Source: Myxococcus eversor (GTDB taxonomy: Bacteria; Myxococcota; Myxococcia; Myxococcales; Myxococcaceae). Taken from it: a stretch of 64,000 bases of DNA. The DNA is taken from NCBI RefSeq assembly GCF_010894455.1, contig NZ_JAAIXY010000014.1, forward strand, positions 1 to 64,000, in the 5' to 3' direction. Both the position numbers and the translations under genes were made by a program. This document shows, piece after piece, positions 12,011 to 36,492 of the stretch; within the stretch, counting starts at the first letter, position 1, and each line of letters opens with the position of its first letter. Under the pieces are notes generated by a model. The model ran no database searches. It was not told where the DNA came from and saw only the letters and a program-made list of their open reading frames with translations.

Positions 12011-12256
12011 GCCCCGCCCGCTCCGGACATCCACAACACCCGGAGGCAAAAGCTCCGGAACCCCATCACGGGGCGGCAATTCCTGGAAACGTCCGGAGTC
12101 CCCGCATGTCGCCATGAAAGGGCGGCAGGCACAAGCCGAGGCTGCGAGGCACACATCCTCCTCCCTGACACCTTGGAGCACCGGGTTGAATACGATGAAC
12201 CTACCTCTCTCGTGTCCCCTTCTTTCCAGGGAGCGGACCAGGATGCGCCACTCGAC

Positions 12257-15060: not shown

Positions 15061-15156
15061 TGGCCTGGGGTACTGACTCATTGAGTCGCCTGTCAGCGTC
15101 GTCTGGTACTGCCAGGGTGTGCCCGCCTCGCGGCGGGCCTCTTGCCGGGGCCTACC

Positions 15157-21947: not shown

Positions 21948-22513
21948 TGGCCTTCGACGTCAAGAACATCCAGAAACAGCTCACCGACGTGCCCCTCGTG
22001 TCGCCGTATCCGCACGACCTCGCGGTGGCCATCATCTGCGACACCTTCCGCCTCGCGGGAGTGCGTCCTCCGTCGCGAGGGGACTGGGAGGACCTGGAGC
22101 GCAGGGCGAAGACACCCGCGCTGTGGCGGGAGCAGGTGGTGATGCTCGCGTACGTGCTGACGTCCTCCACGCTGGGGGCGGAGACGGCGGCGATGCTGAG
22201 GAAGAACACCGACTCCGCCACGGTGATGAAGGGCTTCTTCGTGCAGGTGGAGCCGCTGACGGCGGAGATGATTCGCTCCAACGCCTTCCGTCAGGAGGAG
22301 TTCCTGCGCAAGTGGGTGCACGCGGTGGACGGGCAGGTGAAGGACGAGTCGACCCGGGAGACCGCCGCGCGACTGAAGCAGCTCGACTACCGCGAGGCGC
22401 TCCAGGAGATGCAGCGGGCGGAGGCGGCCCGGCGCAAGGAAGCGGACAAGCGCGCCAAGGACCTCGCGGATGCGGCCCAGCGCGCCGCCGACGCGCGAGG
22501 TTGGCGCGAGTGA
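21947..22513 (+). CDS. Uncharacterised helical protein of the MoxR/zincin-vWA operon
   Basis: 188 aa, cytosolic; start overlaps the previous stop and its stop overlaps the next GTG. The first 120 residues are mixed (PLVSPYPHDLAVAIICDTFR, WREQVVMLAYVLTSSTLG). The last 50 are a strongly charged Ala/Arg/Glu/Lys helix (LQEMQRAEAARRKEADKRAK region) that probably forms a coiled coil. No motif recognised. Likely a structural or substrate-binding subunit of the complex encoded by this operon (inference from coupling only). Confidence 0.78.
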   Translation: MAFDVKNIQKQLTDVPLVSPYPHDLAVAIICDTFRLAGVRPPSRGDWEDLERRAKTPALWREQVVMLAYVLTSSTLGAETAAMLRKNTDSATVMKGFFVQVEPLTAEMIRSNAFRQEEFLRKWVHAVDGQVKDESTRETAARLKQLDYREALQEMQRAEAARRKEADKRAKDLADAAQRAADARGWRE

Positions 22514-23826
22514 CGTTGGGCCTCCCCTCGGATGCACGCGTGGCGCCTCGCGCGAACATCCGCCGGGACACGGGCACCCAGCGTCCCCATGTCCCGTGGG
22601 CGGAGTCCATCGCCGGGGGCCTGTCCCGCTTCGCCGCCCTCCCTGACGAGACAGCGGCCCGCGCGGAGCTGGAGTCGCGACTGGCGGGGCTGCGTGCCGC
22701 GCTGCTCGCTTCGCCCTATTACACGCGGCGACTGCGGGACGCGGGGCTGCACCCCGGAGACCTCCAGACGCTCGCGGACCTGAGGCACCTCCCCAAGTTG
22801 GAGCGAGGCACGCTGGCGCGACACTGGGACGAGGTGCCCACGCCCCTGTCCCGCGAGGACGAGAGCGTGGTGGTGAGGAGCTCCGGCTCCACGGGCGAGC
22901 CGGTGAAGGTGGTGCGAGACAGGCTCGACTGCCTGCACATGTGGGCGGTGCTGCGCTTCTGGCTGGAGCGCGCGCGGGCCGTGTTGCCGCCGAGGCCCCG
23001 CGTGGTGCTGCTGGATGCGCTGCCGGGGGGACTCGAGTACTCGGTGCGGCTTCCCATCCTCCATGACGGAGCGCTGCACCGCATCTCCGTGCTGCGAGAC
23101 GATGCGCGCGAGCGCCTGTGCCGCGTGCGTCCCGCCGTCCTGTTCTCGGACCCGGAGGGGCTGCGCTGGCTCTCCGAGCAGCGCGACCTCCCCGCGCCCG
23201 CGCTGATTCTCACCTCCGCGCAGTACCTGCCCCAGGACACGAGGGAGGCCCTGGCGCGCACGGTGCCCGCGCCGCTCTTGAACTACTACGCGACGACGGA
23301 GACGGGGCCGCTCGCCTGGGAGTGCCTGGGCGGGCCGGGACGCTTCCATGTCCTCGCGCCCGACGTGTGGCTGGAGCCGGGGCTCGACGAGGTGGTGGTG
23401 ACGCGGCTTCGTCCCAGCGTGCTGCCCCTGCTGCGCTACCTGCCGGGGGATGCGGGCACGGTGGACAGGGACGCGTGTGCCTGCGGCTTCCACGGCTGGA
23501 CGTTGGAGCGCTTCGGCGGCCGGGGCGCGTGCCACTTCACGACACCCACGGGCCGGACGGTGGACGCGTGGGCCCTCGCCTGGGTGTTCAAGCACCACGC
23601 CCTGCGCGCCTTCCGGCTGACGCAGGTGGAGCGCTCGCGCTTCGAGTTGGAGCTGGCCGGCGCGGAAGCCTCGGAAGTGACGCCGCTGTGTGAGCGCATC
23701 GTCGCCGCCCTGCGAAACCTCGGCTGGAGCGAGCCACCGCGACTGGACGTGCGGCACGTGAGCGCGGAGGACCTGGCCACCAGCGCCAAGCCCCTGCCGT
23801 TCCGAAGCCGCGTCGCCGCTGCGTAA
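22510..23826 (+). CDS. AMP-binding enzyme, phenylacetate-CoA ligase (PaaK)-like
   Basis: 438 aa, GTG start overlapping the previous stop (GTGA). Adenylate-forming enzyme signature: P-loop SSGSTGEPVKV (from residue 124), a YYATTETGPLAWEC segment matching the A5 motif, and a C-terminal CACGFHGWTLERFGGRG region followed by a small lid domain. The arrangement and length match PaaK-like or coenzyme F390 synthetase-like ligases; the CxC pair in DRDACACGF may be a metal or structural site. The acyl substrate is unknown. Tight coupling to a MoxR/zincin machine is unusual for this family. Confidence 0.85.
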   Translation: MTLGLPSDARVAPRANIRRDTGTQRPHVPWAESIAGGLSRFAALPDETAARAELESRLAGLRAALLASPYYTRRLRDAGLHPGDLQTLADLRHLPKLERGTLARHWDEVPTPLSREDESVVVRSSGSTGEPVKVVRDRLDCLHMWAVLRFWLERARAVLPPRPRVVLLDALPGGLEYSVRLPILHDGALHRISVLRDDARERLCRVRPAVLFSDPEGLRWLSEQRDLPAPALILTSAQYLPQDTREALARTVPAPLLNYYATTETGPLAWECLGGPGRFHVLAPDVWLEPGLDEVVVTRLRPSVLPLLRYLPGDAGTVDRDACACGFHGWTLERFGGRGACHFTTPTGRTVDAWALAWVFKHHALRAFRLTQVERSRFELELAGAEASEVTPLCERIVAALRNLGWSEPPRLDVRHVSAEDLATSAKPLPFRSRVAAA

Positions 23827-24012: not shown

Positions 24013-24382
24013 CGCAGCCGGCCGCGCTGCCAGCGTGTGCGAGGGTGCACCGCAATGGTGCACACCGCCCACCCAGATGCTCGAAGCTCCAATGAACTGG
24101 CGCCAGGCATTCACAAACAACACGCCTGAAAGACTTCATCGTCAGCGTCAGGGAATGGCGGGTCGGTGGCGCCCCGTCCCACTCGGGGCCGCCGTCCACT
24201 CAACAAGTCGGAGCAAGAAGTCGCGCTTTGAACTTCCGAGCGTGTTCCTTCAATCACTTGCATCCGAGAAGAAGGCAGACGACTTCCAAGTCGGACCATC
24301 ATGCGAGTTCCCCGCCTCGCGCCGTGAGGGTTTCGATTTCGAACGCTCGCGGTGCCACCTCGTCGTGAGGAGGCCACTCGCC
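24013..24382. other. Intergenic region, no gene seen
   Basis: 370 bases upstream of the histidine kinase at 24383. An open frame runs through it but has no domain and atypical composition (many Ser and Arg), so it is taken as the non-coding leader or decayed sequence following the hydrolase remnant. The phrase CAAGTCGGA occurs twice (about 24201 and 24287). No promoter could be assigned with confidence. Confidence 0.4.
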
Positions 24383-26563
24383 TTGCGCACGCCCATCTCG
24401 TATCTGGAACCCACCCGTCCGTCGGGGAGCACGCGCTCCCTGTCGACCCCGCTCGAGCAGCGGCTCACGCCGGACCCTCGGAGGGCCTGGAGCTGGCTGC
24501 AGAAGTCCTGGTTCGGTCGATATGGCGTGGCCCTGCTCTTCTTCCTCTTCGCGTTGCTGCTGCAACTGGAGCTGTCGGAGCTGATGTCCACCAGCCCCTT
24601 CCTCTTCTTCTACGGCGCCGTCATGGTGGCCGGATGGTGGGGAGGGTGGGGACCGGCGCTCCTCGTCACGGCGCTGTCGCTCCTGGCCGTGGACCAGCAG
24701 TTCCTCCCGCCGCGCCTGACGCTCCAGATGCGGTCCGCGGACGTGCTGTCCCTGGGCATCTTCTGCCTGCTCGCCATCTTCATCACCAAGCTGAACGTGA
24801 CGCTCAGCCGGGCCCTGGAGGAGCGCGCCGGACTGCTGGAGCGTGAGCACCGCGCCCGCGCCGCCTCAGAGGCCGCTCGGACGCGCCTGCACACCATCTT
24901 CATGCAGGCCCCCGCGCAAATCTTCTTCCTGCGCGGCGCCTCGCACGACTTCGACTTCACCAACGCGCGCAACAGCGCGCTGTTGAAGAACAAGGACACC
25001 CTGGGCAAGCCCTTCCAGGACGGCGTGGTGAAGGTGGCGGAAGAGGACGCGCGCGACGTGCTGGACCGCGTCTACGCCACGGGTGAGTCCTTCGTGGGCA
25101 ACGCCGTGCCGCTGCGCATCCTCCAGGCGGACGGCATGGAGAAGGAGACCTTCCACAACCTGGTGTACCAGCCCACCCGGGACGCGCAGGGCCAGGTGGA
25201 CGGCATCGCCGGCTTCGGCTTCGACGTGACGGACCTGGTGCATGCGCGTCAACGCGCGGAGGCCCTGGCCACGGAGCTGCGCCAGGCGGAGTTCCGCACC
25301 CGCGTCCTCGCCGAGGTGAGCACGGTGCTCGCGTCCTCGCTCGACTACGAGGCGACGATGCGCAACCTGGCCAAGCTGGTGGTGCCCGCGCTCGCCGACT
25401 GGTGCTTCGTGGACCTGGCGAAACCGGATGGCAACTTCCACCGATTGGAGGTCGCCCACGCGCGCCCCGAGGACGCGGCCACCGCCGCGGAGGTCCTCAA
25501 CTTCCAGCTCATGCCGGAGGGCAACCCGCGCCACCCGCCCACCGCGGCGCTCCTGCGCGGCGAGGCGATTCTGCTGGAGGAGATGACGCCCGCGCACATC
25601 AAGCGCAGCGCCCACAGCGAGAACCACGCCCGGGTGATGCTGGCCACCGGGCTGCGCTCCTTCATCGCCGTGCCGCTGGTGGTGCGCGGCCACACGCTGG
25701 GCGTCTTCAGCTTCTTCACCTCGTTCTCCAACCGGCGCTACACCCAGGCGGACCTCGCCTTCGGGCTGGAGCTGGCGTACCGCGCCGCGCTCTCCATGGA
25801 GAACGCGCGCCTGTACCGCGAGGCGCAGGAGGCCATCCGCCTGCGCGACGAGTTCCTCTCCATCGCCAGCCACGAGCTGAAGACGCCGCTGACGCCGCTG
25901 AGCCTCAAGCTCCAGGCGCTCGCGCGAGAGCTGGAGCGGCACCCCGACTCCATCCCCTACTCGGTGGTGAAGAACTACGTGGACACGGGCGCGCGGCAGG
26001 TGAAGAAGCTGGCGGAGCTCGTGGGAGATTTGCTCGACGTGTCGCGCATCGCCGCGGGCCGGCTGGCGCTGGAGTTGGAGGACGTGGACCTGGGCGCGCT
26101 CATCCGCGAGGTGGTGGTGCGCTACGAGCCCCACGCGGCGCGCTCGGGCTCCACGCTGGAGGTGGAGGGCGGCGAGACGGGCCTCGTCGGACGGTGGGAC
26201 CGGCTCCGGCTGGAGCAGGTGGTCACCAACCTCATCGACAACGCGGTGAAGTACGGCTCGGGCAAGCCCATCCAACTGGTCCTGGAGCAGGGCCCCACCC
26301 GCGCGCGTCTCAAGGTAAGGGACCAGGGCATCGGGATTGCTCCCGAGCACCTGCCGCGGCTCTTCGGCCGGTTCGAGCGGGCCGTGTCGGAGCGGCACTA
26401 CGGCGGCCTGGGCCTGGGCCTCTACATCACCCGGACGCTGGTGGAGGCCATGGGGGGACGGGTGCGCGTGGAGAGCGAGCAGGGCCGAGGCTCCGTCTTC
26501 ACCGTCGACCTGCCCCGGGAGCGGACGCTTCCTGTTGACGTGTCGGCATCCCAGCCACAGTAA
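24383..26563 (+). CDS. Membrane sensor histidine kinase (DUF4118-PAS-GAF-HisKA-HATPase)
   Basis: 726 aa. TTG start chosen because GAGGAGG lies 8 nt upstream (24368-24374) and the frame further upstream is not protein-like. DUF4118/KdpD-type membrane part (about 45-145, four hydrophobic helices, WWGGWGPALLVTALSLL), coiled linker, PAS (about 160-290; FFLRGASHDFDFTNARN), GAF (about 300-475; LVVPALADWCFVDLAKPDG), HisKA with His497 in LSIASHELKTPLTPL, HATPase with NLIDNAVKYG, RDQGIGI and GGLGLGLYITR. No receiver. Autophosphorylating sensor, ligand unknown; no adjacent response regulator, so an orphan kinase. Confidence 0.88.
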   Translation: MRTPISYLEPTRPSGSTRSLSTPLEQRLTPDPRRAWSWLQKSWFGRYGVALLFFLFALLLQLELSELMSTSPFLFFYGAVMVAGWWGGWGPALLVTALSLLAVDQQFLPPRLTLQMRSADVLSLGIFCLLAIFITKLNVTLSRALEERAGLLEREHRARAASEAARTRLHTIFMQAPAQIFFLRGASHDFDFTNARNSALLKNKDTLGKPFQDGVVKVAEEDARDVLDRVYATGESFVGNAVPLRILQADGMEKETFHNLVYQPTRDAQGQVDGIAGFGFDVTDLVHARQRAEALATELRQAEFRTRVLAEVSTVLASSLDYEATMRNLAKLVVPALADWCFVDLAKPDGNFHRLEVAHARPEDAATAAEVLNFQLMPEGNPRHPPTAALLRGEAILLEEMTPAHIKRSAHSENHARVMLATGLRSFIAVPLVVRGHTLGVFSFFTSFSNRRYTQADLAFGLELAYRAALSMENARLYREAQEAIRLRDEFLSIASHELKTPLTPLSLKLQALARELERHPDSIPYSVVKNYVDTGARQVKKLAELVGDLLDVSRIAAGRLALELEDVDLGALIREVVVRYEPHAARSGSTLEVEGGETGLVGRWDRLRLEQVVTNLIDNAVKYGSGKPIQLVLEQGPTRARLKVRDQGIGIAPEHLPRLFGRFERAVSERHYGGLGLGLYITRTLVEAMGGRVRVESEQGRGSVFTVDLPRERTLPVDVSASQPQ

Positions 26564-26617
26564 AGGCCCCGCGCGAGAACGGACGCCATGCCGGCGACCG
26601 GCGAAAGGGGTGTCGAC

Positions 26618-27616
26618 ATGGAGACACGTACGCTTGGGAGGCAGGGCCTCCAGGTGTCCGCCATCGGCCTGGGCTGCATGGGGATGTCGGATTTCTACTC
26701 GGGGCGGGACGACGCGGAGTCGGAGGCCACGCTGCTGCACGCGTTGGACAAGGGCATCACCTTCTTCGACACGGCGGACATGTACGGCTCCGGGAGCAAC
26801 GAGGAGCTGGTGGGCCGGGTGCTCAAGCCCCACCGCGCGAAGGTGGTGCTGGCCACCAAGTTCGGCGTCGTCAGGGACCCGAACAACCCCCAGGCGCGCG
26901 GCATCAATGGCAGTCCGGAGTACGTGAAGCGCGCGTGCGAGGCCAGCCTGCGTCGGCTGGGCATGGAGGTCATCGACCTGTACTACCTGCACCGGCTGGA
27001 CGCGGCGACGCCCATCGAGGACACGGTGGGGGCCATGGCGGACCTGGTGCGCGAGGGCAAGGTGCGGCACCTGGGGCTGTCGGAGGTGGACGCGGACACG
27101 CTGCGCCGGGCGTCGAAGGTGCATCCCATCGCCGCGCTCCAGAGTGAGTACTCGCTGTGGAGCCGCGAGCCGGAGGACGGAGTGCTCCAGGCCTGCGGCG
27201 AGCTGGGCATCGGCTTCGTGCCGTACAGCCCGCTGGGGCGCGGCTTCCTGACGGGGCAAATCAAGCGCTACGAGGACCTGGCCGCGGACGACTACCGCCG
27301 CAACTCGCCGCGCTTCCAGGGGGAGAACTTCACGCGCAACCTGGAGCTGGTGGTGAAGGTGGAGCGGCTGGCGAAGGACAAGGGCTGCACGCCGGCGCAG
27401 CTCGCGCTCGCGTGGGTGATGGCGCGCGGCCAGGACGTGGTCCCCATTCCGGGCACCAAGCGGCGCACGTACCTGGATGAGAACCTGGGGGCGCTCGACG
27501 TGAAGCTCACGGAGAATGACTTGAAGGACATCGACCTCGTGGCGCCTCCGGGCGTCGCGGTGGGAGAGCGATATCCGGCGGCGATGCAGCGCGTGCTGCC
27601 GCAGTCGCGCAAGTAG
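26618..27616 (+). CDS. Aldo/keto reductase
   Basis: 332 aa NADPH-dependent oxidoreductase of the YajO/AKR13 type. The catalytic tetrad is complete: Asp51 and Tyr56 in [11 protein letters not shown], Lys81 in LATKFG, His125 in YYLHRLD. Cofactor-loop phrases [13 protein letters not shown] and [15 protein letters not shown] are present. The start at 26618 has GAAAGGGG upstream and gives the normal [19 protein letters not shown]; an ATG at 26588 would add ten unneeded residues. Follows the kinase gene by 54 bp. Substrate unknown, aldehydes or ketones expected. Confidence 0.92.
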
Positions 27617-28405
27617 TCAGCCACGGGCCCGTGGGAGCTGCGCGTGCGGCTGCCACGGGCCACTGGCGCCCAGGCAGTAGCGACAGGTTGCGAGCGGCGT
27701 GTCCCGCTCCAGGTGGCCGAGCATCCGCTCCAGCAGCTCCGGGGCGTCGAGGCGCACGCCGTCGACTTCGGCCAGCGCGGGCATCTCAGGGTACGTGGGG
27801 CCGAGCACCGTGGCGACGTGGGGTGGCCGGGTGCAGGTGTAGAAGTGGCCCTGGTGGACCAGGTGGCAGCGGACCTTGAGCCAGCACTTCGCGTGGACGT
27901 CGCGGACCTGCGCGTCCGTGGCGAGGGGCGCGTCGGGGGTGAGCTGCTGGAAGGCGTCGATGTGCTTCACGGTGAGGTGGACGCCGTGCCGCTCGCAGCG
28001 CTCGGTGATGCGGGCGAGCGACTTCTCCGGCAGGAGCGCGGAGGAGTAGACGGACAGGGTCATCCGGTCCAGGCGCTCGTAGACGGCGTCGGGTGCGCTC
28101 TGGGCGAGGAAGCCGTTGGTGGTGACGGAGAGCTGCTCGGAGATGCCGGAGGCGCGGACGGCGTCGAGCACGCTGGCGAGGTCGGGGTGGAGGAAGGGCT
28201 CGCCGCCGGTGAGCTTGAAGATGTTGGGCTTGAGCACGCGCGCGAGCCGGGTGAGGTCCGCGCCGAGCACGGAGGGCTCCACGGCCCAGGCGGGCAGGTG
28301 GGGCGACAGGGGGCAACACTGCACGCAGCGCAGGTTGCAGTGGGTGACGACGTGCGTCTCCAGGGACCAGGTGAGGATTCGGCCGTCGTGCAGCTCGTAA
28401 CGCAC
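27617..28405 (-). CDS. Radical SAM protein
   Basis: 262 aa, GTG start. The [4Fe-4S]-binding motif CNLRCVQC (Cys23, Cys27, Cys30) lies in the normal place, followed by LTGGEPFLHPDL (SAM-binding GGEP) and LSVTTNGFL. The C-terminal part has further cysteines (CWLKVRC, YTCTRPP, CRYC) that could bind an auxiliary cluster, as in SPASM or twitch proteins. A TATAGT box ends 7 bp before the GTG, and no ribosome-binding site is present, so the message may be leaderless. Divergent from the asparagine-synthetase-like gene (54 bp apart). Function unknown; a peptide- or sugar-modifying role is possible. Confidence 0.87.
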   Translation of the reverse strand: MRYELHDGRILTWSLETHVVTHCNLRCVQCCPLSPHLPAWAVEPSVLGADLTRLARVLKPNIFKLTGGEPFLHPDLASVLDAVRASGISEQLSVTTNGFLAQSAPDAVYERLDRMTLSVYSSALLPEKSLARITERCERHGVHLTVKHIDAFQQLTPDAPLATDAQVRDVHAKCWLKVRCHLVHQGHFYTCTRPPHVATVLGPTYPEMPALAEVDGVRLDAPELLERMLGHLERDTPLATCRYCLGASGPWQPHAQLPRARG

Positions 28406-28426
28406 GGAGGGACTATAGCGGGGTTG

Positions 28427-28440
28427 CCGGGGGCCCCCGG
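28427..28440. promoter_or_regulatory. 14-bp perfect palindrome in divergent promoter region
   Basis: CCGGGGGCCCCCGG is exactly self-complementary and lies between the divergent radical SAM (start 28405) and asparagine-synthetase-like (start 28460) genes. It could be a shared operator. Because only G and C are involved in a GC-rich genome, chance is a fair alternative. Confidence 0.35.
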
Positions 28441-28459
28441 GGCTTGCGACAGTCCCCGC

Positions 28460-29776
28460 GTGTCCGACGCCCCCGGCGACCCGAGCGGCCCGCTCGCCGT
28501 CCTGCCCTCCTACCAGCCGACAGCCGGGCCACGGACGGGTGCTCCCGTGGAGTCGGTGTGGCGCATGGCGCCGACCCAGGGCCTGGAGCCCGCGTCTGTC
28601 GCGGCGTTCCTGCTGCATATCCTGCCGTCGCCCCGGAGCCTCTTTCGAGATGTGAGCCGCATCGCACCGCTCCTGCCTCGCGTGCACCGCGAGTCGATGC
28701 CGTTGAGTTCGGACGAAGAAGAGGACGAGTCGCGAGCGCGTGCGCTCCTGGCCGCGTGCTCGGACGCCGTGGGCGCGCGGGTGGGCTCGGGGGCAAGGGA
28801 TGTGAGCCTGAGTGGCGGCGTGGACAGCGCGGTGCTGTGCATGCTGGCGGCCCGACATGCGGAGGGCCGGGTTCGGGCGTGGAGCATGGACGTCCACTTC
28901 GCTGACGAGGTGGAGCGCCGCAACGCCAGGACAGTGGCCCGGCTCGCGGGAGCGGAGCGAGTGGACGTTCCGATTCCGGATGCCCTGCTGCCGGACCTGT
29001 TCGAGCCCGCCGTCCTGGCCAACGAGAGCGCCATCCTCAATGCCCGGGCCGTGGCGAGCTTCGCGTTCTATGCGGAGGCGAAGAGGCTTGGGGCCTCGGT
29101 GATGCTCAGCGGTGCTGGCGCGGATGAAGTGTTGATGGGGAATCCCGAGGCACGTGATTCGGCACTCGCACGCATCGAGGAGGACCGACGACTCGCACGC
29201 ACGGTGCTGCGCTCCGCTGTGGACAACTTGGGGAGGACTCCGGACGGGCCCTGGTCCCAGGAGGACGGCCCGGAGGTCTCCGAAGAGGTCCGCTACGCGG
29301 CGTGGGTGCTGCGCGAGTTGGTGCTGCCTCCGGAGCTGAGGGGCGCGCGGGCGCATGGACTCACCGTGCACACGCCCTATCTCGACTCGCGCTTCGCCGA
29401 TGTGGCGCTCGCGCTGCCCGAGTCCTCCCTCTCGCGCGATGGAGTGGGCAAGTGGCTCTTCCGATACGCGGTGCGCGGACTGGTCCCCGATGAGGTCCGG
29501 CTGGCGCGCAAGACGCCACGCTATGGGCACACGGCGCTCTCCAGTCCCGTGCGTGCGCGCTGGCTGGAGCTGTATCGAGCGTGGCTGTCGGCCGCTCGAC
29601 TGGAGCCGCTGGAGGTCATCGACCCCAAGGCGGTGCTCACGCTCCTGGAGCGCTACACGCGAATGGAGCCCGAGGCTCCGGAGGCGGGTGGCGTGGATCG
29701 CCTGTTGATGCGGCTGTGCTCCCTCGCCATGCTCCACGCGCACGCAGTGCACGGTTCCCCATGTCCCGAATCCTGA
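28460..29776 (+). CDS. Asparagine-synthetase-like ATP-pyrophosphatase (no glutaminase domain)
   Basis: 438 aa, GTG start. From about residue 100 it is the synthetase domain of asparagine synthetase B: PP-loop SLSGGVDSAV (S118), adenine/Mg segment MLSGAGADEVLMGN, HTPYLDSRFADVALALP and LARKTPRYGHTAL. The N-terminal 100 residues do not contain the Cys2 glutaminase, so the enzyme would need free ammonia or another amine and could form amides on another acid, as in beta-lactam or lasso-peptide cyclases (family knowledge; substrate not shown). It overlaps the next gene by 16 bp. Confidence 0.85.
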   Translation: MSDAPGDPSGPLAVLPSYQPTAGPRTGAPVESVWRMAPTQGLEPASVAAFLLHILPSPRSLFRDVSRIAPLLPRVHRESMPLSSDEEEDESRARALLAACSDAVGARVGSGARDVSLSGGVDSAVLCMLAARHAEGRVRAWSMDVHFADEVERRNARTVARLAGAERVDVPIPDALLPDLFEPAVLANESAILNARAVASFAFYAEAKRLGASVMLSGAGADEVLMGNPEARDSALARIEEDRRLARTVLRSAVDNLGRTPDGPWSQEDGPEVSEEVRYAAWVLRELVLPPELRGARAHGLTVHTPYLDSRFADVALALPESSLSRDGVGKWLFRYAVRGLVPDEVRLARKTPRYGHTALSSPVRARWLELYRAWLSAARLEPLEVIDPKAVLTLLERYTRMEPEAPEAGGVDRLLMRLCSLAMLHAHAVHGSPCPES

Positions 29777-30954
29777 TTGCGACCTCGCCCGAGAAGGGCC
29801 ACATCAACCCGATGATGGGCGTCGCGCAGTGGCTGCGCCGCCTGGGCCACACCGTGGGTTGGCTCTGCATCCCCGAGCCCGCGCCACAGCTCGCGACGCT
29901 CGGAGTGGAGGTGCTGCACCTGCCCCACTCCGCGAGAGAGGCCCCCTCCATCGAAACCGGTGGCGAAGCCCTCGCCCGTCTGGTGCGCGACGAGGTGGCG
30001 CTGGGGAAGTGGATTCGGGGTCTGTTGCTGGATGCGGTGCCCACGCTCATCGAGCCCGTGCGCGAGGTGGTGCGTCGCTTCCGTCCGGACGTCATGGCGC
30101 TGGATGGGATGCAGTACGCGGCGGTGCTGGCCGCGCATCAGGAGCGGATACCGTGGGCGGGCGTGTCCTCGGCGCTCTCGTTGCTGGAGCCCATGGAGGA
30201 CTACGGGCTGCGCCGCAACGTGCGAGCCCTGGCGAAGGAGCGCGCTGAGCTGTTCGCCCGACACGGCTTCGAGGCGAGCTTCCGCAACTGCGAGGCCCTC
30301 TCGCCCCTGCTCAACATCCTCTTCGCCACGGAGGCGTTCCTCGGCTCCGACGTGGACCTTCCGCCCGCCGGGCGATTGGTGGGCCCGTCGATTCCGCCCG
30401 AGCCCCGGGGCGACGAAGTGGACTTCCCGTGGGAGCGATTGGGCTCGAAGCCCGTGGTGTACGTGTCCTTCGGCAGCCAGATTTCGTGGCAGCCCACGGT
30501 GTTCCGCACCATCGCGGAGGCCGCCGCGCCCCTGGGTGTCACGGTGGTGTTGAGCGCGGGCGAGCTGGCGGACACGGAGTTCTCGCGCTCGCTGCCCGGG
30601 GACGTGGTGGCGGTACCCTACACGCCGCAACGCCAGCTCCTTCCGCGAGCGTCTGCCTTTGTCTCGCACGGTGGCGCCAATTCCGTGATGGAGGCGCTGA
30701 CGGCGGGCGTGCCGCTGTTGCTGCTGCCTGTTTGCAATGACCAGCCCATCCAGGCGCACTTCCTCCGCGCATCGGGAGCGGGGCTCACGCTGGAGCTGGA
30801 CACGCTGACGGTGGAGGACTGCCGCGCCGCGCTTCGCCAGCTTCTGGAGCCGGGCACACCGCTGCGCGCGAAGGTGGCCGCCATCTCGGAGTCGTATCAA
30901 TCCCGAGACGGCGCGAAGGATGCGGCGGAGCGAATCGCGGGCCTCGTCGAGTGA
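29761..30954 (+). CDS. GT1 (MGT/UGT-type) glycosyltransferase
   Basis: 397 aa. The N-terminal Rossmann half starts RILIATSPEKGHINPMMGVA, the acceptor-side entry used by macrolide and UDP-glucuronosyl transferases. The C-terminal half has the nucleotide-sugar motif FVSHGGANSVMEALTAGVP followed by PVCNDQPIQAHFL (HGG...DQ). It likely attaches a sugar from UDP- or TDP-sugar to a small lipophilic acceptor. Overlaps both neighbours (16 bp upstream; GTGA at 30951), so it is coupled to the synthetase-like and kinase-like genes. Confidence 0.9.
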   Translation: MSRILIATSPEKGHINPMMGVAQWLRRLGHTVGWLCIPEPAPQLATLGVEVLHLPHSAREAPSIETGGEALARLVRDEVALGKWIRGLLLDAVPTLIEPVREVVRRFRPDVMALDGMQYAAVLAAHQERIPWAGVSSALSLLEPMEDYGLRRNVRALAKERAELFARHGFEASFRNCEALSPLLNILFATEAFLGSDVDLPPAGRLVGPSIPPEPRGDEVDFPWERLGSKPVVYVSFGSQISWQPTVFRTIAEAAAPLGVTVVLSAGELADTEFSRSLPGDVVAVPYTPQRQLLPRASAFVSHGGANSVMEALTAGVPLLLLPVCNDQPIQAHFLRASGAGLTLELDTLTVEDCRAALRQLLEPGTPLRAKVAAISESYQSRDGAKDAAERIAGLVE

Positions 30955-31820
30955 GCGAGCTGTCGCGAGCGTGGACGGCCCGCCGTCACCATGCGACCGG
31001 TGTGACACCGCTGGAGGTGTGGAATCTCCCGGTGTTCGAACGGGAGCTATGGGAGTTGCTCGGAGCGCCACGAGTGGAGGCGGACCGACGCGCGGGAGTG
31101 CCCGAGGCCCAGCTCGCGGAGCAATTGTTTCCAGCGCTCACGAGCGCCCTCGAACAACTGGTGCACCGGCATGCCGTGGACGCGGTGTGGCTGAGTGGAG
31201 GACTGGCCGGCCTGGAGGGCTTCGAGGTCGGGGTGGCGAAGGCGACTTCCAAGCTCGGGTGCCCCGTCTATGTGTCGGAGTCACCGCGCTTCGCGCCCGT
31301 GCACGCGGGCCTCGGGTTGGTGGAGGCGCGAACGCCGCTGGTGCTCGACGTGGGCCAGACGAGCATCAAGTGCGCGAGCCCGGGAGCCCAGCATGTCTTC
31401 GAGAGGGACCTCAACCAACTGCCCCGCCTCTTCATCGGAATGCCGCGTCCCACGGATGGGCACCACATTGTCGTGGCGGTGCGCTTCATCGCCAACGCGC
31501 TGCGGACCTGTGCACGAGACCTCGGTGACCTGACGGTAGAGGGCCTGTGTCTCGCGCTTCCCTGTCCCCTGGATGAGGCCCTCGTTCCAGGAGGCTGCAC
31601 GTATGGGTGGGAAGGTCACGCATCACTGGTGGCCGACATCCTGGAGGAAGCAGCCCTGCCAGGTGGTGGCACGGTGCTCGTGCTCAACGACGCGGAACTC
31701 GCAGCAGAGGCGGCGCGCATGGAGCTCCGAAAGCACAAGCACCGTCGCATCCTCTGCCTCACGCTGGGCTTCGGCCCGGGAGGAGCACTGCTCATTACTT
31801 CCACATCACCTGGCAAGTAG
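30951..31820 (+). CDS. ROK/ASKHA-fold sugar kinase-like protein
   Basis: 289 aa, GTG start. Two phosphate-binding elements of the ASKHA fold are seen: VLDVGQTSIKCAS (phosphate 1, D-x-G-x-T-x-x-K) and LNDAELAAEAARM followed by LTLGFGPGGALL (phosphate 2 and the Gly loop). ROK kinases carry NDANAAALGE and a zinc motif; the zinc Cys/His cluster is not clear here, so it is a divergent member. It probably phosphorylates a sugar that feeds the adjacent glycosyltransferase. Translationally coupled to that gene (GTGA). Confidence 0.75.
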   Translation: MSELSRAWTARRHHATGVTPLEVWNLPVFERELWELLGAPRVEADRRAGVPEAQLAEQLFPALTSALEQLVHRHAVDAVWLSGGLAGLEGFEVGVAKATSKLGCPVYVSESPRFAPVHAGLGLVEARTPLVLDVGQTSIKCASPGAQHVFERDLNQLPRLFIGMPRPTDGHHIVVAVRFIANALRTCARDLGDLTVEGLCLALPCPLDEALVPGGCTYGWEGHASLVADILEEAALPGGGTVLVLNDAELAAEAARMELRKHKHRRILCLTLGFGPGGALLITSTSPGK

Positions 31821-31862: not shown

Positions 31863-32534
31863 ATGCGAATCCCTCACGCGCTCTGGCTTTCGCTGTTCGC
31901 CGCGTCCTGGCTGGGCTGCTCCACTGCCAGCAAGCCGCCCATCCAGCAGGCCTGGGAAGAGGCGGAGCAGGAATGCGACGACCCTGGGAAAGACCAGTGC
32001 GTCACCCTCTTCTGCCTGGAAGACACCTGTGGCTTCTACCGCTGCGAGGACACGCCGGTAGAAGTCGAGCTGGCGCGCTTCCCTCCCTCGCGTCCTCCCG
32101 CGGCAGCAGCGGCGCCGGGCAGCGGCCCTCGGAGGAACTGGGGCGGACCGCAGAAACTGCCTCCGGGCTCCATCATGACGTTCCCCAACTGGAACGGCGC
32201 CCCGACAGCAGGCATCCCTCCGTCACGGCAGCTCACGCCAGGGCGTTGGGAGAAGCATCATATCTTCCCTCAGTCAAAGGACCTGGCGGAGTGGTTCGCG
32301 CGCCAGCAAGTGAAGATCCACAACTACACCATGCCCATCCCGCTCTCCATTCATCGAAGGATTCATGACGGAACCCCGCGTGGAGGCGCCTGGAACGATG
32401 CATGGCGGGAGTACATGATTGCCAAACCGTTCGCCTCTCCGGAAGAGATTTTCAGGCACGCGGGAGAGTTGATTCATCGATTCGAACTCTTGGGCGGTCC
32501 GATCCAGCCCTACCATTCTCGTCCAGGAGCGTAG
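31863..32534 (+). CDS. sitA6: SitA6-type polymorphic toxin lipoprotein (TIGR02269)
   Basis: 223 aa. Signal peptide with lipobox ASWLGC (Cys19) and a short Cys-rich segment (CDDPGKDQCVTLFCLEDTC, 39-56) typical of TIGR02269 proteins. A Pro/Ala linker (70-125) leads to a C-terminal nuclease-like domain: EKHHIFPQSKDLAEWF (His132, His133), HNYTMPIPLSIHRRIHDGTPRG and WREYMIAKPF. The HHIFPQ...H pattern is an HNH-type toxin core. Such toxins are passed to siblings by TraAB-dependent outer membrane exchange. The cognate immunity gene starts 6 bp after its stop. Confidence 0.85.
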   Translation: MRIPHALWLSLFAASWLGCSTASKPPIQQAWEEAEQECDDPGKDQCVTLFCLEDTCGFYRCEDTPVEVELARFPPSRPPAAAAAPGSGPRRNWGGPQKLPPGSIMTFPNWNGAPTAGIPPSRQLTPGRWEKHHIFPQSKDLAEWFARQQVKIHNYTMPIPLSIHRRIHDGTPRGGAWNDAWREYMIAKPFASPEEIFRHAGELIHRFELLGGPIQPYHSRPGA

Positions 32535-32540
32535 GCACGA

Positions 32541-33260
32541 ATGAGTCGTTTCTATTGGGTCAATGAAGACAAGACCACCAGGGCCAAGCACGGGGGCTAC
32601 CTCGACGCGGCGCACACGTGGGGGCTTCCCGGAATACGGTGTCACGCGTGCGGAGCCGCCTGGAGTGCCGTAGCCCACGACTTCCCCTCGCTTGACCTCT
32701 CGCAGCTTCCAGCAAATCGTGAGTTCCTCAAGCCAAGAGCCGAACCCTTCCCCGAGTTCGTGCGCCTTCGCGAATTGGTCCGGCCCCTCGTGCCGTCCCA
32801 TGTCGAGCTGCCGCCTGGAACGAGCTTCGGTCCATTGAAGGGAAGCGCCGTTGGTGAGTTCGGGCCCATGGCCTGGCTGGGACCCAGACTTCTTCTGCGC
32901 CCTGACGTGCTGGAGCGCCTGCAAGCAGAAGGAGTGCGCGGAGTGATGGGCTGTCGCACGGAGCTGCGATTCCGCAAGAAGAACCCACCGGAGCTGCTGG
33001 AACTTCAGATCGAACCGCGCGGTCGGTTTCATCCAGACTGCATTCCCTCGGATGTTCCCCCGCCGTGCACAACCTGTGGCAGGCACGGCTTCGGACGCCC
33101 CGACGAACCCATCCTCGACGCAGCTTCGCTCCCTCAGGACCTCGACCTCTTCCGCGTGGGCAACTTCGCCACGATGATCATCGGCACCGAGCAGTTCATG
33201 GACGCCGTACATCGCCTCGGATTCGAAGGCATGACCTTCCGCGAGCTGCCGACACGCTGA
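32541..33260 (+). CDS. sitI6: SitI6-type double-CXXCG immunity protein (TIGR02264)
   Basis: 239 aa cytosolic protein. Two CXXCG motifs, CHACG (34-38) and CTTCG (176-180), define the family; both are intact and could form one zinc site. Begins SRFYWVNEDKTTRAKHGGYL and ends NFATMIIGTEQFMDAVHRLG, both typical. It neutralises the nuclease encoded 6 bp upstream; the tight spacing makes toxin and immunity co-expressed. Confidence 0.87.
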   Translation: MSRFYWVNEDKTTRAKHGGYLDAAHTWGLPGIRCHACGAAWSAVAHDFPSLDLSQLPANREFLKPRAEPFPEFVRLRELVRPLVPSHVELPPGTSFGPLKGSAVGEFGPMAWLGPRLLLRPDVLERLQAEGVRGVMGCRTELRFRKKNPPELLELQIEPRGRFHPDCIPSDVPPPCTTCGRHGFGRPDEPILDAASLPQDLDLFRVGNFATMIIGTEQFMDAVHRLGFEGMTFRELPTR

Positions 33261-33350
33261 CCCTCATCCGTCCGGCCACGTGGATTTGCGCAGGAACCGG
33301 TCCTCGGGTGTGGCTTGTCACGAGCAGGGCTGGAGAAAGGAAGCATCCAG

Positions 33351-33743
33351 ATGCGTCATGAGCCGGCGGGAAGATGGCTGTGCCTGTTGGGGCTGGTCCT
33401 GGCCTGTGGGCCGGGCATCGATGAACGGGACTCGCCGCCCGGGTACCTCCTTCGGGCGCCCCACACAGTCGTCGCGATGCCCATCGCCAACAACGGCGCG
33501 GACCCGGAGTTTGAGCTCATCATCCTGGGCATCGACTTCATCCCCGCCACCGCCGTGTACGTCCGACAGGTCGCCGTTCCGACCGAGTTCGTGAGCAGCA
33601 CGGAGCTGCGGGCGCAACTGGACTCCGACCTCGTGGAAGGCCTTGCGACCTTCCCACTCGAACTCCGCGTGGCGCCCGGCACCCCACCCTTCTTCCAGGG
33701 CGCGACGTCTCCCACCTACACAGTGACGATGCCGGTCCGGTAG
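33351..33743 (+). CDS. Small TIG-like lipoprotein, paralogue of the downstream gene
   Basis: 130 aa. AAGGAAG lies about 8 nt before the ATG. Lipoprotein signal WLCLLGLVLACG (Cys about 19). The rest reads like one IPT/TIG domain: ELIILGIDFIPATAVYVRQV, EFVSSTELRAQL, FPLELRVAPGTPPF. The first 25 codons and the ATG context (CATCCAGATGCG) closely resemble those of the next gene (CTTCCAGATGCG), so the two arose by tandem duplication. Function unknown, surface protein inferred. Confidence 0.75.
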   Translation: MRHEPAGRWLCLLGLVLACGPGIDERDSPPGYLLRAPHTVVAMPIANNGADPEFELIILGIDFIPATAVYVRQVAVPTEFVSSTELRAQLDSDLVEGLATFPLELRVAPGTPPFFQGATSPTYTVTMPVR

Positions 33744-33765
33744 CACGCGAAAGGACTCCTTCCAG

Positions 33766-36492
33766 ATGCGCCAGGATGTGACGCGAGGATGGCTGTGTCT
33801 GCTGTGGCTCCTCTGTGCCTGCGGACCGGGCCTCGATCTCCCTGTGCCCAGCCCTGAATCGGACGCGGGGACCCCGCCCGAGGAGGTGGCGCTCCCCTCC
33901 GTCACCCTGGGAGAGGTGGCCGTGACGGACGTGGAGGGCTCCGAGCTGAGCATGCGGGTGCTCGGCGCCGCCTTCTCCCCGTTCAGCATCGTGTTCGTGA
34001 ACGGCCAGGCCATGACGACCCAGTTCGTGAACGCCACCGAGCTGAGGGCCCTGGTTCCGTCCTGGTACGCCACCGCCACACCGGAGCTCTTCTTCGAGGT
34101 GCGAATCTACCGGGGCGACCCCACCTACAAAGGAGGCGCCAGGTCCGCCCGCGTCCCGTTCACCCTGCCCGCTCCCGAGCTGACCTCCGTGACTCCAGAC
34201 TCCCTCGACTCGGAGCCCGCGGAGGCCGTTCAAATCACCGTCACGGGGAAGAACCTCGTGAAGGGCAGCCACGCCATCTTCCGCGACCAGGCCTATCCGT
34301 TGACGGTGACGAGCCTCCACGCAGGAAGCTTCTTTCTTCCACCGTCGGCCCTGAAAGCCCAGGCGGAGCGGGACGCTCTCGTCATCGAAGTCACGCGCCC
34401 ACGCTCCGCGCGCTCACAGCCACTCCCCTTGACGTTGACGAGCCCCGTCCCGGAAATCACGGGCGTGTGGCCACCCACGCTGAACGCCGTCGACCTGCAC
34501 CATGGCAATGCGGGCAGCGCCTCCGTCGACCGCATCATCGTCAGCGGGCTCCAGATGCGAGCCAATACGGTGGTGACGTGGAATGGCATCCCCCTGCACA
34601 CCGAGGCATACGACAACAGGAACCGGGTCCATGCGACCATTCCCCGCACCGCTCGAGTACAGGCCGGCACCGTCCAGGTGGCGCTGGAGACTCCCGGCCC
34701 CGACGGAGGAAAAGCGTCCTCCCGCCATCCGCTTCGCGTGAAGTCCGAGCCCGTGCTGCATACCGTGGCACCGGCCTGGGTCCTCGCGGGCTCGGGGGAG
34801 GTCAGGTTCCAGCTCCGGGGCGAAGGAATGGGACAGGGGCTCCACGGGCAGCAGGTCGTCCACTGGAACGGCCACCGCCTGGAGCACTTCTTCGGTCCGG
34901 ACTCACTGGGGATTTGGGAGTTCATCGTCCCCGCCGCCCTGCTGACCCAGTCCGGCACCCTCCCCGTGACGGTGACGCGCACGTTCGACGGCGCGGTGTC
35001 GGCGCCGCTCTTCGTCCAGGTGCTCGCCCAGGCCCCCGCGCCCATCGCCCGCTCTCTGCTGCCTTCGGTGTTGTCCGTCGGAGATGCGCCGGGCCCTCTC
35101 TTCGTCGATGGCGCCGGCTTCACCTCCCAGTCCGTCATCCTGCTGGACGGACAGGCACGCACCACCCGCCTTCACAGCCCGTCGCGACTGTCCACCCCGC
35201 TCCAGGCCGAGGACCTGACGACGAAGGGCATGCGCACCGTCACCGTGAGCACGCCCGCGCCAGGAGGAGGCACCAGCCTGCCTTTGCTGCTCGCGGTGCA
35301 TGAGGAGCGGCCCAGGCCCGTCATCGACGAGGTCTTGAGCGACGTCGGGTTCCCCTATGCCCTCGCCGGGGCTGGCGTCCTGCGTCTGCGCGTCGAGGGC
35401 CTGGGCTTCAGCCCCCTCTCGGTTGTCCGATGGAATGGTCAACCGCTTCCCACCCGGTGGACGTGCGAGGCCTGGGGCGGCTGCACGGCGGGCCATGGCG
35501 AGCGGGCCACCCTGTCGGTGGAGGTCCCCGCCGACCAGGTGGCGCAACCCGGCGTCGGTCGGGTGACGGTGGTCAACCCGGGCCCTGGAGGCGGAGAGAG
35601 CGCGGAGGCGTTCTTCGTCCTCTCCGCGATGGGACAGCCCACGCTGCATCTGAGCCCTTCCTTGGTGGATGTGGGGATGCGTGACGACTTCAGGCGCCAG
35701 GTGCTCATCTGGGCGCGGGACTTCGGGACCAGCGCCCGGACCTTGGTCCTCTTCGTGAATGGCGAGGAGCGTGGGTTCAGCGGCGAGCCGAGCCTGCGCC
35801 TGAGCGACGAAGAGGTGTCGACTCCACGGGTCTACGAGATACGGACCCTCATCCAGGGCCATGGCATGAGTGCCCCCGCCCATCTGCGAATCCAGGGCGC
35901 CCTCCCACCGCACCTTCGGACGGTGGCACCGGGTGTCGTCTCCCAGGGAGAGTGGTCCGCCACGGAGAAGCGACCCCTCGTCGTGTCGGGCGGGAACTTC
36001 TTCTGGCCCCACAGCGACTCGCAGAGGACCTCGCGCACCACCCTGGACTGGGGAGACCAGTCGCAATCCCTCTCATATCTTGGGCCAGCGTGGCTGGTGG
36101 GCCAGGAGCTGGAGCAGGTGGGAATCCGCTCGCTGACGGTGTCACGCGCCGCGGAAGGCGGTGGCGTGTCGCTGCCCGCGCTGCTCAACGTGGTCTCCGA
36201 GCGACCCGTGCCGCTGTTGACCCAGGTGGAGCCCATGAGCGTCCCGATGGGGGCGCCCGCGTTGCTGCTCCGAATCAAGGGGCAGGGCATCCACTCCGCC
36301 ACGGTGTTGCGATGGAAGGACTTCCGTTCGAGCCTCAAGCCCGTGTTCATCTCGAACCCGGAGCCGGCGCACTACGAGGTGCTCCTCCCCGCCGAAGCGC
36401 TCGCGGAACCCGGAGGCGTGGACGTCACGCTGGAGACACCCGGGCCTGGCGGAGGGCTCTCTCCTCCCATCCGCGTCGTCGTCGAGGAGTAG
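33766..36492 (+). CDS. Large lipoprotein with repeated IPT/TIG (immunoglobulin-like) domains
   Basis: 908 aa. Signal and lipobox WLLCACG (Cys about 18). About nine beta-sandwich repeats follow, each with a 'P.I..V.P' entry, a G-x-G/N-F turn, a V-x-W-NG segment (for example VVTWNGIPL, VVHWNGHRL, VVRWNGQPL, VLRWKDF) and a VTV-TPGPGGG exit. These are IPT/TIG domains used in adhesion and surface stalks. No enzymatic domain. GC-rich coding with no frameshift. Function unknown; an outer-surface adhesin or fibre is inferred. Confidence 0.82.
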   Translation: MRQDVTRGWLCLLWLLCACGPGLDLPVPSPESDAGTPPEEVALPSVTLGEVAVTDVEGSELSMRVLGAAFSPFSIVFVNGQAMTTQFVNATELRALVPSWYATATPELFFEVRIYRGDPTYKGGARSARVPFTLPAPELTSVTPDSLDSEPAEAVQITVTGKNLVKGSHAIFRDQAYPLTVTSLHAGSFFLPPSALKAQAERDALVIEVTRPRSARSQPLPLTLTSPVPEITGVWPPTLNAVDLHHGNAGSASVDRIIVSGLQMRANTVVTWNGIPLHTEAYDNRNRVHATIPRTARVQAGTVQVALETPGPDGGKASSRHPLRVKSEPVLHTVAPAWVLAGSGEVRFQLRGEGMGQGLHGQQVVHWNGHRLEHFFGPDSLGIWEFIVPAALLTQSGTLPVTVTRTFDGAVSAPLFVQVLAQAPAPIARSLLPSVLSVGDAPGPLFVDGAGFTSQSVILLDGQARTTRLHSPSRLSTPLQAEDLTTKGMRTVTVSTPAPGGGTSLPLLLAVHEERPRPVIDEVLSDVGFPYALAGAGVLRLRVEGLGFSPLSVVRWNGQPLPTRWTCEAWGGCTAGHGERATLSVEVPADQVAQPGVGRVTVVNPGPGGGESAEAFFVLSAMGQPTLHLSPSLVDVGMRDDFRRQVLIWARDFGTSARTLVLFVNGEERGFSGEPSLRLSDEEVSTPRVYEIRTLIQGHGMSAPAHLRIQGALPPHLRTVAPGVVSQGEWSATEKRPLVVSGGNFFWPHSDSQRTSRTTLDWGDQSQSLSYLGPAWLVGQELEQVGIRSLTVSRAAEGGGVSLPALLNVVSERPVPLLTQVEPMSVPMGAPALLLRIKGQGIHSATVLRWKDFRSSLKPVFISNPEPAHYEVLLPAEALAEPGGVDVTLETPGPGGGLSPPIRVVVEE

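Follow-up and report, generated by a model that had tools for sequence, protein, structure and literature searches.

A nine-gene locus shared by Myxococcota and Planctomycetota with a predicted circularly permuted ASKHA kinase

Mycothiol, bacillithiol, the aminoglycosides and teicoplanin share a biosynthetic logic that combines a glycosyltransferase, a PIG-L protein and a ligase, while PQQ, mycofactocin and LysW-carried synthesis offer analogies for metabolites made from or upon a peptide or protein. A further described arrangement is the MoxR-vWA ternary system (Kaur et al. 2020, PMC7159879), in which a MoxR ATPase is paired with a von Willebrand factor A (vWA) protein, the third component is VMAP, iSTAND or FtsH, and one subtype neighbors a radical S-adenosylmethionine (SAM) protein. 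Here we describe a locus of nine genes in Myxococcus eversor (assembly GCF_010894455.1, an 11.4 Mb genome), located on a 64,000-nucleotide stretch of contig NZ_JAAIXY010000014.1 (positions 1 to 64,000, forward strand), hereafter referred to as the window. Module A comprises genes for an AAA ATPase, protein X, a vWA-like protein, protein Y and an AMP-forming ligase; module B comprises genes for a radical SAM protein, an asparagine-synthetase-like protein (AsnS), a family 1 glycosyltransferase (GT1) and a kinase. As read from sequence profiles and a structure model, the kinase is a circularly permuted ASKHA kinase rather than a member of the ROK family. We propose, with a probability of roughly 0.5, that module B is a biosynthetic half making a small glycoconjugate that contains one or more amide bonds and that module A is a dedicated ATP-driven machine.

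Relatives of the locus resemble the mycothiol, bacillithiol, aminoglycoside and teicoplanin systems in encoding sugar transfer, N-deacetylation and amide formation together. The locus differs from them in its GT1-type transferase, its asparagine-synthetase-type ligase, its permuted kinase and its AAA/vWA-like machine, and the window itself lacks PIG-L (the relatives' PIG-L proteins gave no match in its genome at E 1e-3). Protein Y recalls LysW-type carriers and the mycofactocin and PQQ precursors in its short conserved C-terminal motif, which includes Trp and Glu, or in having a conserved tail near a radical SAM gene; however, it is a 188-residue helical protein, and modification of its tail is hypothetical. 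The likeness to MoxR-vWA ternary systems lies in a MoxR-type AAA gene adjoining a vWA-like gene, whereas the partners X, Y, AMP-ligase and module B set the locus apart from those systems as far as Kaur et al. describe them; X and Y match no Pfam or NCBIfam family. A literature search of open-licence papers found no description of this gene set or of a permuted ASKHA kinase. All of the enzymes have known relatives, and the permuted kinase scores below the cut-off of every curated family.

Gene content and inheritance of the locus

The features of the locus in the window are as follows.

17930-19465, forward strand: MoxR-like AAA+ ATPase, 511 aa (Walker A GGPGRGKT, Walker B IIDEYN)
19462-20289, forward strand: protein X, 275 aa, no family (4-nt overlap with the ATPase gene; no Pfam or NCBIfam match)
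20286-21947, forward strand: vWA-like protein (N-terminal zincin-like motif HEIGHH; DTSGS...GGGT...D series resembling a metal ion-dependent adhesion site, MIDAS)
21947-22513, forward strand: protein Y, 188 aa, predicted helical, C-terminal ARGWRE
22493-22510, forward strand: codons of the ARGWRE tail of Y (A183-E188, invariant in the Y alignment)
22540-23826, forward strand: PaaK-like AMP-forming acyl ligase (start codon uncertain)
24035-27616: histidine kinase and aldo-keto reductase genes, between modules A and B
28405-27617, reverse strand: radical SAM protein (PF04055, 29.8 bits; CxxxCxxC, C31 and five C-terminal Cys)
28406-28459: 54-bp gap between the divergent start codons
28460-29776, forward strand: AsnS, asparagine-synthetase-like amide ligase without glutaminase (GTG start; PF00733, 141 bits; SGGVDS)
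29761-30954, forward strand: GT1 glycosyltransferase, MGT-like (UDPGT, 76.9 bits; 16-nt overlap with AsnS)
30951-31820, forward strand: circularly permuted ASKHA (ROK-like) kinase, as predicted (4-nt overlap with GT1; AlphaFold2 model)

The original prediction, made from the sequence of the window, had concerned 27617-31820 only and described a radical SAM gene facing an operon of overlapping genes for a synthetase domain, a glycosyltransferase and a sugar kinase, together resembling a small pathway. The divergent layout is present at that place with the coordinates and strands given above, the genes overlap by 16 nt (AsnS and GT1) and 4 nt (GT1 and kinase), and the GTG start of AsnS agrees with the similar N-terminus of its relatives. 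Overlaps of 4 nt likewise couple the ATPase, X and vWA-like genes. The four genes do form a conserved cassette, but as a whole pathway they fall short, the five partner genes at 17930-23826 having been missed.

A kinase match occurs in all 27 genomes of the genus group and in 50 of 147 genomes of the class, two of these being weak fragments (G064, G075) that were set aside, with no tblastn match in stretches L080 and L081. From 40 fetched stretches, 36 Myxococcaceae kinase stretches were retained (L063 and L064 come from other families, and L080 and L081 hold no kinase). The AsnS, GT1 and kinase genes share their orientation in 36/36, so that the synthetase is not a lone housekeeping gene, and the radical SAM gene is conserved with the operon, being divergent in 31 of the 36 stretches (not found within the fetched stretch in the other five) and separated from AsnS by no more than 3 kb in 26. 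Among named relatives, the locus is borne by Myxococcus, Pyxidicoccus, Corallococcus and Citreicoccus.

The same neighborhood recurs in other Myxococcota and in Planctomycetota. A scan of named genomes returned 29 loci, including Planctomycetota, Polyangiaceae and other Myxococcales metagenome-assembled genomes (MAGs), and the divergent arrangement of the radical SAM gene against AsnS-GT1-kinase was found in L106, L110 and L113 (Planctomycetota) and in L109 and L111 (Myxococcales) at 29-54% identity. In the Planctomycetota MAGs of L106 and L110 the genes form an unbroken run, AAA-X-vWA-Y-PaaK-radical SAM (reverse strand)-AsnS-GT1-kinase-PIGL; L111 contains all ten genes, PIGL included, in rearranged order, and L109 and L113 contain those parts that fit on their short contigs. 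Genome G137 carries module A plus the radical SAM gene on one contig and AsnB-GT1-kinase-PIGL on another (L149, L063), and genome G377 is similarly divided into Y-PaaK-AsnS and GT1-kinase-PIGL. PIG-L comes immediately after the kinase in 14 of the 15 loci from outside Myxococcaceae; the kinase has GT1 beside it in 12, AsnS or AsnB in ten and the radical SAM gene in nine.

Joint inheritance of the genes is directly supported by their divergence and by their co-occurrence. Mantel correlations reached 0.97 for radical SAM-GT1 and 0.89 for radical SAM-kinase (14 loci each) and 0.83 for GT1-kinase (18 loci); without the other Myxococcaceae they were 0.96, 0.80 and 0.70, respectively. The L109 radical SAM sequence, cut by the contig end, was left out of this and the cysteine comparison by the length filter. 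Across 142 genomes, counted without phylogenetic correction, the kinase and the vWA-like gene occur together in 47, the kinase only in one (G035) and the vWA-like gene only in three (G121, G124, G139). Among 392 Planctomycetota genomes, with the six to eight top candidates scored in each, a full kinase occurs in nine and Y in eight, and all four genomes whose Y ends in GWRE are among those nine. The permuted kinase would be a clean marker for recognizing a biosynthetic cassette that occurs in both Myxococcota and Planctomycetota, and the cassette as a whole would link an AAA/vWA-like machine to small-molecule synthesis, M. xanthus included.

Architecture of the kinase and its partner proteins

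The original prediction had named the last gene a divergent sugar kinase of the ROK family. Divergent it is, but the permutation had been missed, and the match to Pfam ROK (PF00480) is only 11.6 bits, below the cut-off of 22.9. The protein shares with ROK sugar kinases, which belong to the ASKHA superfamily, a DxGxT-like phosphate-1 motif, a catalytic ND, a GxGxGG-like phosphate-2 motif and an adenosine-side GG; it differs in that the halves are swapped, new termini follow the phosphate-2 hairpin and the zinc-motif segment is missing. Along the chain, GG at 83-84 (with the PRFAPVHAGL continuation, 83-121) comes first, followed by phosphate-1 DVGQTSIK (133-140), the catalytic ND (246-247) and, at the C-terminus, phosphate-2 GFGPGGA, where the hairpin LTLGFGPGGALL lies close to the chain end; these are the roles that we take the motifs to have. 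Residues D133, G135, Q136, T137, K140, N246, D247, G273, F274, G275 and G277 are invariant in 24 sequences plus nine diverse ones, and the chain order is identical in all distant members aligned. The L046 kinase was omitted from the alignment on account of an in-frame stop.

The case for permutation rests on which halves match which chains, on the structure model and on the motif order, the individual tests being of unequal strength and some of them weak. Profile positions 47-119 match residues 247-326 (or 251-326) of the 348 of MreB, with a whole-sequence E of about 1e-6 and a domain E of 4.5e-5 against PDB sequences, and the N-terminal part also matches residues 163-240 of 243 in a CoA activase (E 0.0044). 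The opposite end of the profile, positions 229-281, matches residues ~104-158 of ROK-type kinases, best a ROK-type glucomannokinase (E 1.9e-4), and residues 132-283 align to positions 3-142 of the 318-position NCBIfam ROK glucokinase profile. In the AlphaFold2 model (predicted local distance difference test score, pLDDT, 92.8; predicted template-modeling score, pTM, 0.90), residues 127-284 superpose on residues 0-142 of the N-acetylglucosamine kinase 7p9l with a joint-top Z of 9.8 and a root-mean-square deviation of 2.4 over 135 aligned residues. Taken together, the N-terminal part of the kinase would correspond to the C-terminal part of MreB and its C-terminal part to the N-terminal half of ROK kinases. 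Sequential alignments of the model over residues 14-266 reach a Z of about 9 as well; since actin-like folds have internal two-fold symmetry, we do not take them to reflect homologous order.

Rotating the profile gave results on both sides. With hhalign, the rotated profile aligns 242 columns in one piece (ROK 3-271), against 135 columns (3-142) for the native one. ROK-type kinases among PDB sequences score slightly better with the rotated profile (1woq 5.4e-5 vs 1.9e-4; 6q27 0.0017 vs 0.011; 4htl 0.0012 vs 0.0045; 3lm2 0.056, with a match that crosses the new joint, vs 0.099), and MreB scores worse (1.2e-5 vs 9.6e-7). The hhalign score was not raised by rotation (43.5 rotated vs 43.6 native), and the N-terminal half alone gave an hhalign E of 0.02. 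The Planctomycetota scan, in which the six to eight best candidates were scored per genome (six for the kinase), separates the two halves: besides the nine genomes with a full-length kinase, 72 have partial matches only, and each listed match falls within positions 19-156 or 156-282, none spanning both. The open reading frames (ORFs) behind the former are mostly ~350-400 codons and those behind the latter mostly ~300, sizes expected of MreB-like and ROK proteins, respectively.

ROK enzymes carry a zinc-motif segment, GH...CxCGxxGCxE. The kinase alignment contains no such conserved segment, the chain stopping just past the phosphate-2 hairpin, and the new termini presumably sit where that segment would be. 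A naturally permuted ASKHA kinase would mean that the actin/hexokinase fold tolerates new termini within its second domain. In L046 (G008:C105), a near relative, the kinase gene has an in-frame TGA, reflecting either decay or an assembly error.

Of the remaining module B proteins, the radical SAM protein clears PF04055 by a small margin (29.8 bits, cut-off 29.5), and nine of its cysteines are invariant in 15/15 sequences from two phyla, including C23, C27 and C30 of the CxxxCxxC motif and the adjoining C31. The extra C-terminal cysteines noted in the original prediction are borne out as C174, C180, C191, C241 and C244. SPASM and twitch proteins bear a C-terminal cysteine set for auxiliary iron-sulfur (Fe-S) clusters, CX9-15GX4C plus further Cys; here C174-x11-G-x4-C191 and the CxxC at 241-244 are invariant and make up part only of the full SPASM set. 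Its nearest relative of solved structure is PDB 7wzv, a full-length match over residues 5-260 (phmmer E 4.6e-39). The entries 7wzv, 7wzx and 7x0b ('4Fe-4S cluster-binding domain-containing protein') share a similar C-terminal CRxCLGxxG and differ in being about 60 residues longer; a paper search with the entry codes returned no relevant paper and no function. In the type II clusters discussed below, the radical SAM proteins (L064 3782-5014, L107 3581-4822) have an extra N-terminal ~130 aa, which in L064 matches no Pfam family.

AsnS carries the ATP-pyrophosphatase domain of asparagine synthetase, with SGGVDS present. The earlier statement that it has no glutaminase holds: Pfam and NCBIfam scans found no N-terminal class II glutaminase (GATase), and the TIGR01536 alignment begins only at profile position 194, scoring 96 bits against a cut-off of 267. 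Within the asparagine synthetase B (AS-B), beta-lactam synthetase and lasso cyclase superfamily (PF00733), the likeness is the PP-loop SGGVDS and the lysines at 331 and 351, kept in 13/13 proteins compared; the protein, which we call type I, differs in lacking glutaminase, in falling below every curated family cut-off and in the residue at what we take to be Glu348 of E. coli AS-B. This position is Ala in the window and A or V in 6/6 type I proteins compared, and is Asp in full-length AsnB and in the type II proteins of sister clusters. Lacking both the glutaminase and an equivalent of this Glu, AsnS is unlikely to perform ordinary glutamine-dependent asparagine synthesis, and we infer that it joins a carboxylate to a substrate amine. 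GT1, predicted earlier as a glycosyltransferase of that family, is confirmed by UDPGT (PF00201, 76.9 bits, cut-off 19.5); its near full-length match to MGT (TIGR01426) reaches 160 bits, under the cut-off of 260.

In module A, the ATPase scores 44.5 bits for AAA_lid_2, over the cut-off, and 26.3 for AAA_3, just below 27; it is 72-75% identical in L106, L110 and L149, and both Walker motifs are kept in ten aligned sequences. Protein X is 41-43% identical and occupies the equal position in L106 and L110. The vWA-like protein passes Peptidase_M48 (24.5 bits, cut-off 20.3) and is 51-52% identical in the same two loci; HExGHH is found in all 11 aligned sequences covering the motif and DxSGS in 13/13, and no PDB chain matches by sequence. 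The AMP-ligase is 47-53% identical and adjoins Y in L106, L109, L110, L111 and L149.

Protein Y ends in exactly ARGWRE in 46 of 50 distinct proteins from 70 loci in two phyla, a conserved tail that is directly observed; some of the 46 are fragments or near duplicates arising from genomes that were fetched a second time. Of the other four tails, three are the PRGKW of a sister module and one (L150) is QPGYE. Distant copies are 40-51% identical to Y of the window. The AlphaFold2 model is all-helical (pLDDT 89.7), with a long last helix at 148-186 and final residues at a pLDDT of ~65. Scans of Pfam, NCBIfam and PDB sequences gave no relative, and the best Foldseek E was 0.77, a lack of match that is not proof of a new fold.

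The sister module, AAA-X-vWA-Y' with its own radical SAM gene (L148 5756-13199; also L152, L156, L188 and L189), has an ATPase 51% and a vWA-like protein 36-38% identical to those of module A. In four of five Myxococcus-group loci Y' is followed within 0.9 kb by a different radical SAM gene (6.4 kb downstream in L189), after which comes an aminotransferase-like gene (named by eye; no NCBIfam match). The order vWA-Y'-radical SAM recurs on the Planctomycetota contig L231, again with the tail PRGKW, and the sister module is possibly a separate, undescribed pathway. Its tails were read in L148, L152, L156 and L226, L188 and L189 being outside this set; the L192 row was dropped from the tail table and the tail of that genome taken from L111. 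In the eight Planctomycetota genomes with Y, the tail is GWRE in G147, G151, G153 and G377, all of which have the permuted kinase, and STRE (G283), PRGKW (G218), GPRE (G293) and PSGE (G439) in the others; in the Fisher test, G283 was entered as an overlap despite its STRE tail.

Proposed function and alternatives

Under the proposed reading, the AMP-ligase would activate a carboxylic acid, and AsnS would adenylate a carboxylate and couple it to a substrate amine to form an amide. The radical SAM enzyme may introduce a radical change with the help of auxiliary Fe-S clusters. The sugar transferred by GT1 would probably be an N-acetylhexosamine, given the PIG-L gene next to the kinase in relatives; in those relatives PIG-L may provide an N-deacetylation step, and the permuted kinase would phosphorylate the sugar or the product. 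The long helix of Y could present the ARGWRE tail as a docking or modification point for the machine, and the AAA/vWA-like machine of Myxococcota and of some Planctomycetota would be tied to module B by way of Y and the AMP-ligase. The original prediction had offered a glycosylated amide or modified peptide as product: with PIG-L in the relatives, a glycosylated amide appears the most natural product class, while the locus extends beyond the 27617 boundary assumed there.

Several observations weigh against this reading. The modules are separable: the type II clusters L064, L107 and L220 (radical SAM, AsnS-like, AsnB, GT1, GT2, kinase, PIGL) have no detected AAA, vWA-like or Y gene nearby, and the genomes with a Y match do not include the type II genomes G035, G148 and G431 (L112 is not counted apart from L064, the two being one contig). 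For the queries applied, kinase-PIGL is all that L216 and L217 retain, GT1 is additionally present in L218 and L219, and L108 has the kinase by itself; most of the distant loci come from MAGs. Genome G283 has AAA beside radical SAM-AsnB-GT1-kinase-PIGL, yet its sole detected Y is on another contig, is nearer the sister type and ends in STRE; this, along with the type II clusters, counts against a direct link between Y and module B. The N-acetylhexosamine step is indirect for the window, since its genome has no PIG-L match. The AMP-ligase is below all curated cut-offs (NF045666 66 bits, cut-off 300; AMP-binding 25.9, cut-off 29.9). Lastly, no vWA family matches the vWA-like protein, VWA_2 being found in one of seven relatives scanned at E 0.013, and with motifs read by eye behind the label, the vWA fold is weakly supported.

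The last point bears on the first alternative, in which module A is a MoxR-vWA chaperone switch: the Y tail would bind the MIDAS of the vWA-like protein or X, Y would be an unmodified adaptor, and the machine would mature or remodel one enzyme. This is doubtful, though it has a precedent in the MoxR-vWA pairs that assemble metal enzymes, as stated in PMC7159879, and the conserved DxSGS and the existence of sister A modules with a diverged Y tail and no module B fit it. Against it stand the weakly supported vWA fold and the togetherness of A and B across phyla, which it leaves unexplained unless the client is a module B enzyme.

Alternatively, Y could itself be the precursor or carrier: the radical SAM enzyme and the steps of ligation, glycosylation and phosphorylation would modify its ARGWRE tail, which the HExGHH protein may release, to yield a peptide-derived cofactor or metabolite. 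The original prediction had seen no precursor peptide. A comparison of ORFs of at least 30 aa from 12 loci (blastp, E 1e-6, low-complexity filter) likewise recognized none, although not every small component was inspected and peptides below 30 aa or very variable ones would escape; it otherwise gave the named locus genes, antisense shadows and pairs between closely related loci. The 54-bp gap leaves no room for a precursor gene between radical SAM and AsnS. The statement must nevertheless be qualified, since Y bears the ARGWRE tail. The exactness of that tail in proteins as little as 40-51% identical, its presentation by the long helix, the HExGHH motif and a tendency of tail and radical SAM gene to co-vary (sister Y' with PRGKW near a different radical SAM gene, also in L231) all speak for a carrier. 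Yet we consider it unlikely: the type II clusters have the same radical SAM family without a detected Y (L064 and L107 38-40%, L220 48% identical to the protein of the window), the only detected Y in G283 is sister-like, Y at 188 aa is no short peptide, and a tail of this kind fits a docking role too.

A more far-reaching form, which we regard as distinctly unlikely, would make Y a new kind of protein carrier, with a glycosylated amide metabolite built on or joined to ARGWRE through the action of the radical SAM enzyme, AMP-ligase, AsnS, GT1 and the permuted sugar kinase, the MoxR/vWA-like machine moving or releasing the carrier, and the sister module being a second pathway on the same chassis. 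If true, the tail sequence of Y would predict the chemistry.

Modules A and B could also be unrelated neighbors, module B alone being a cassette for glycolipid or polysaccharide decoration. In agreement with this, L064, L107 and L220 hold module B with no module A next to it, and L148, L152 and L156 hold sister A modules but no module B; against it, the contiguity of A and B in two phyla, the same genes reordered in L111 and their co-occurrence make it improbable. Finally, a MoxR-vWA-type biological-conflict system (anti-phage or kin) with a small-molecule effector, as suggested by the SitA5-family gene and SitA6/SitI6 pair flanking the locus and by conflict systems of this type known in multicellular bacteria, one subtype with a radical SAM effector (PMC7159879), is highly improbable, given that a PADLOC-DB 2.0 scan of the nine proteins returned only weak general radical SAM matches (pVip) and that the kinase occurs in 27/27 genus genomes while SitA stands beside it in only two fetched relatives (L045, L046). 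A known anti-phage system was likewise rejected: PADLOC gives no support beyond the weak pVip matches of the radical SAM protein.

Neighboring genes and minor observations

The histidine kinase and aldo-keto reductase genes between the modules were considered as pathway members and rejected; we treat them as lineage additions because they are absent from L055 and L062 and their order is swapped in L153. In the latter, a Corallococcus-type locus, a RecQ-like helicase gene (11319-13322, named by eye) separates the radical SAM gene from AsnS. The record L101, titled Comamonas sp. KCTC 72670, bears the locus with a kinase 63% identical; it resembles a Myxococcus genome and is probably mislabeled or contaminated.

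Sit-type genes flank the locus on both sides. Upstream, at 15142-16491 of the window, lies a SitA5-family polymorphic toxin gene (NF050093, 362 bits), and directly downstream, at 31863-33260, lie a SitA6-family toxin lipoprotein gene and a SitI6 double-CXXCG immunity gene (TIGR02269, TIGR02264). L045 and L046 are the only loci in which SitA was found at this site, and the region from the kinase to a DegP-like gene varies among relatives, as if it were an insertion site. Farther downstream, 33315-36492 encodes choice-of-anchor Z repeat proteins (NF058597, with seven stretches in 33766-36492), which are variably present beside the locus in relatives.

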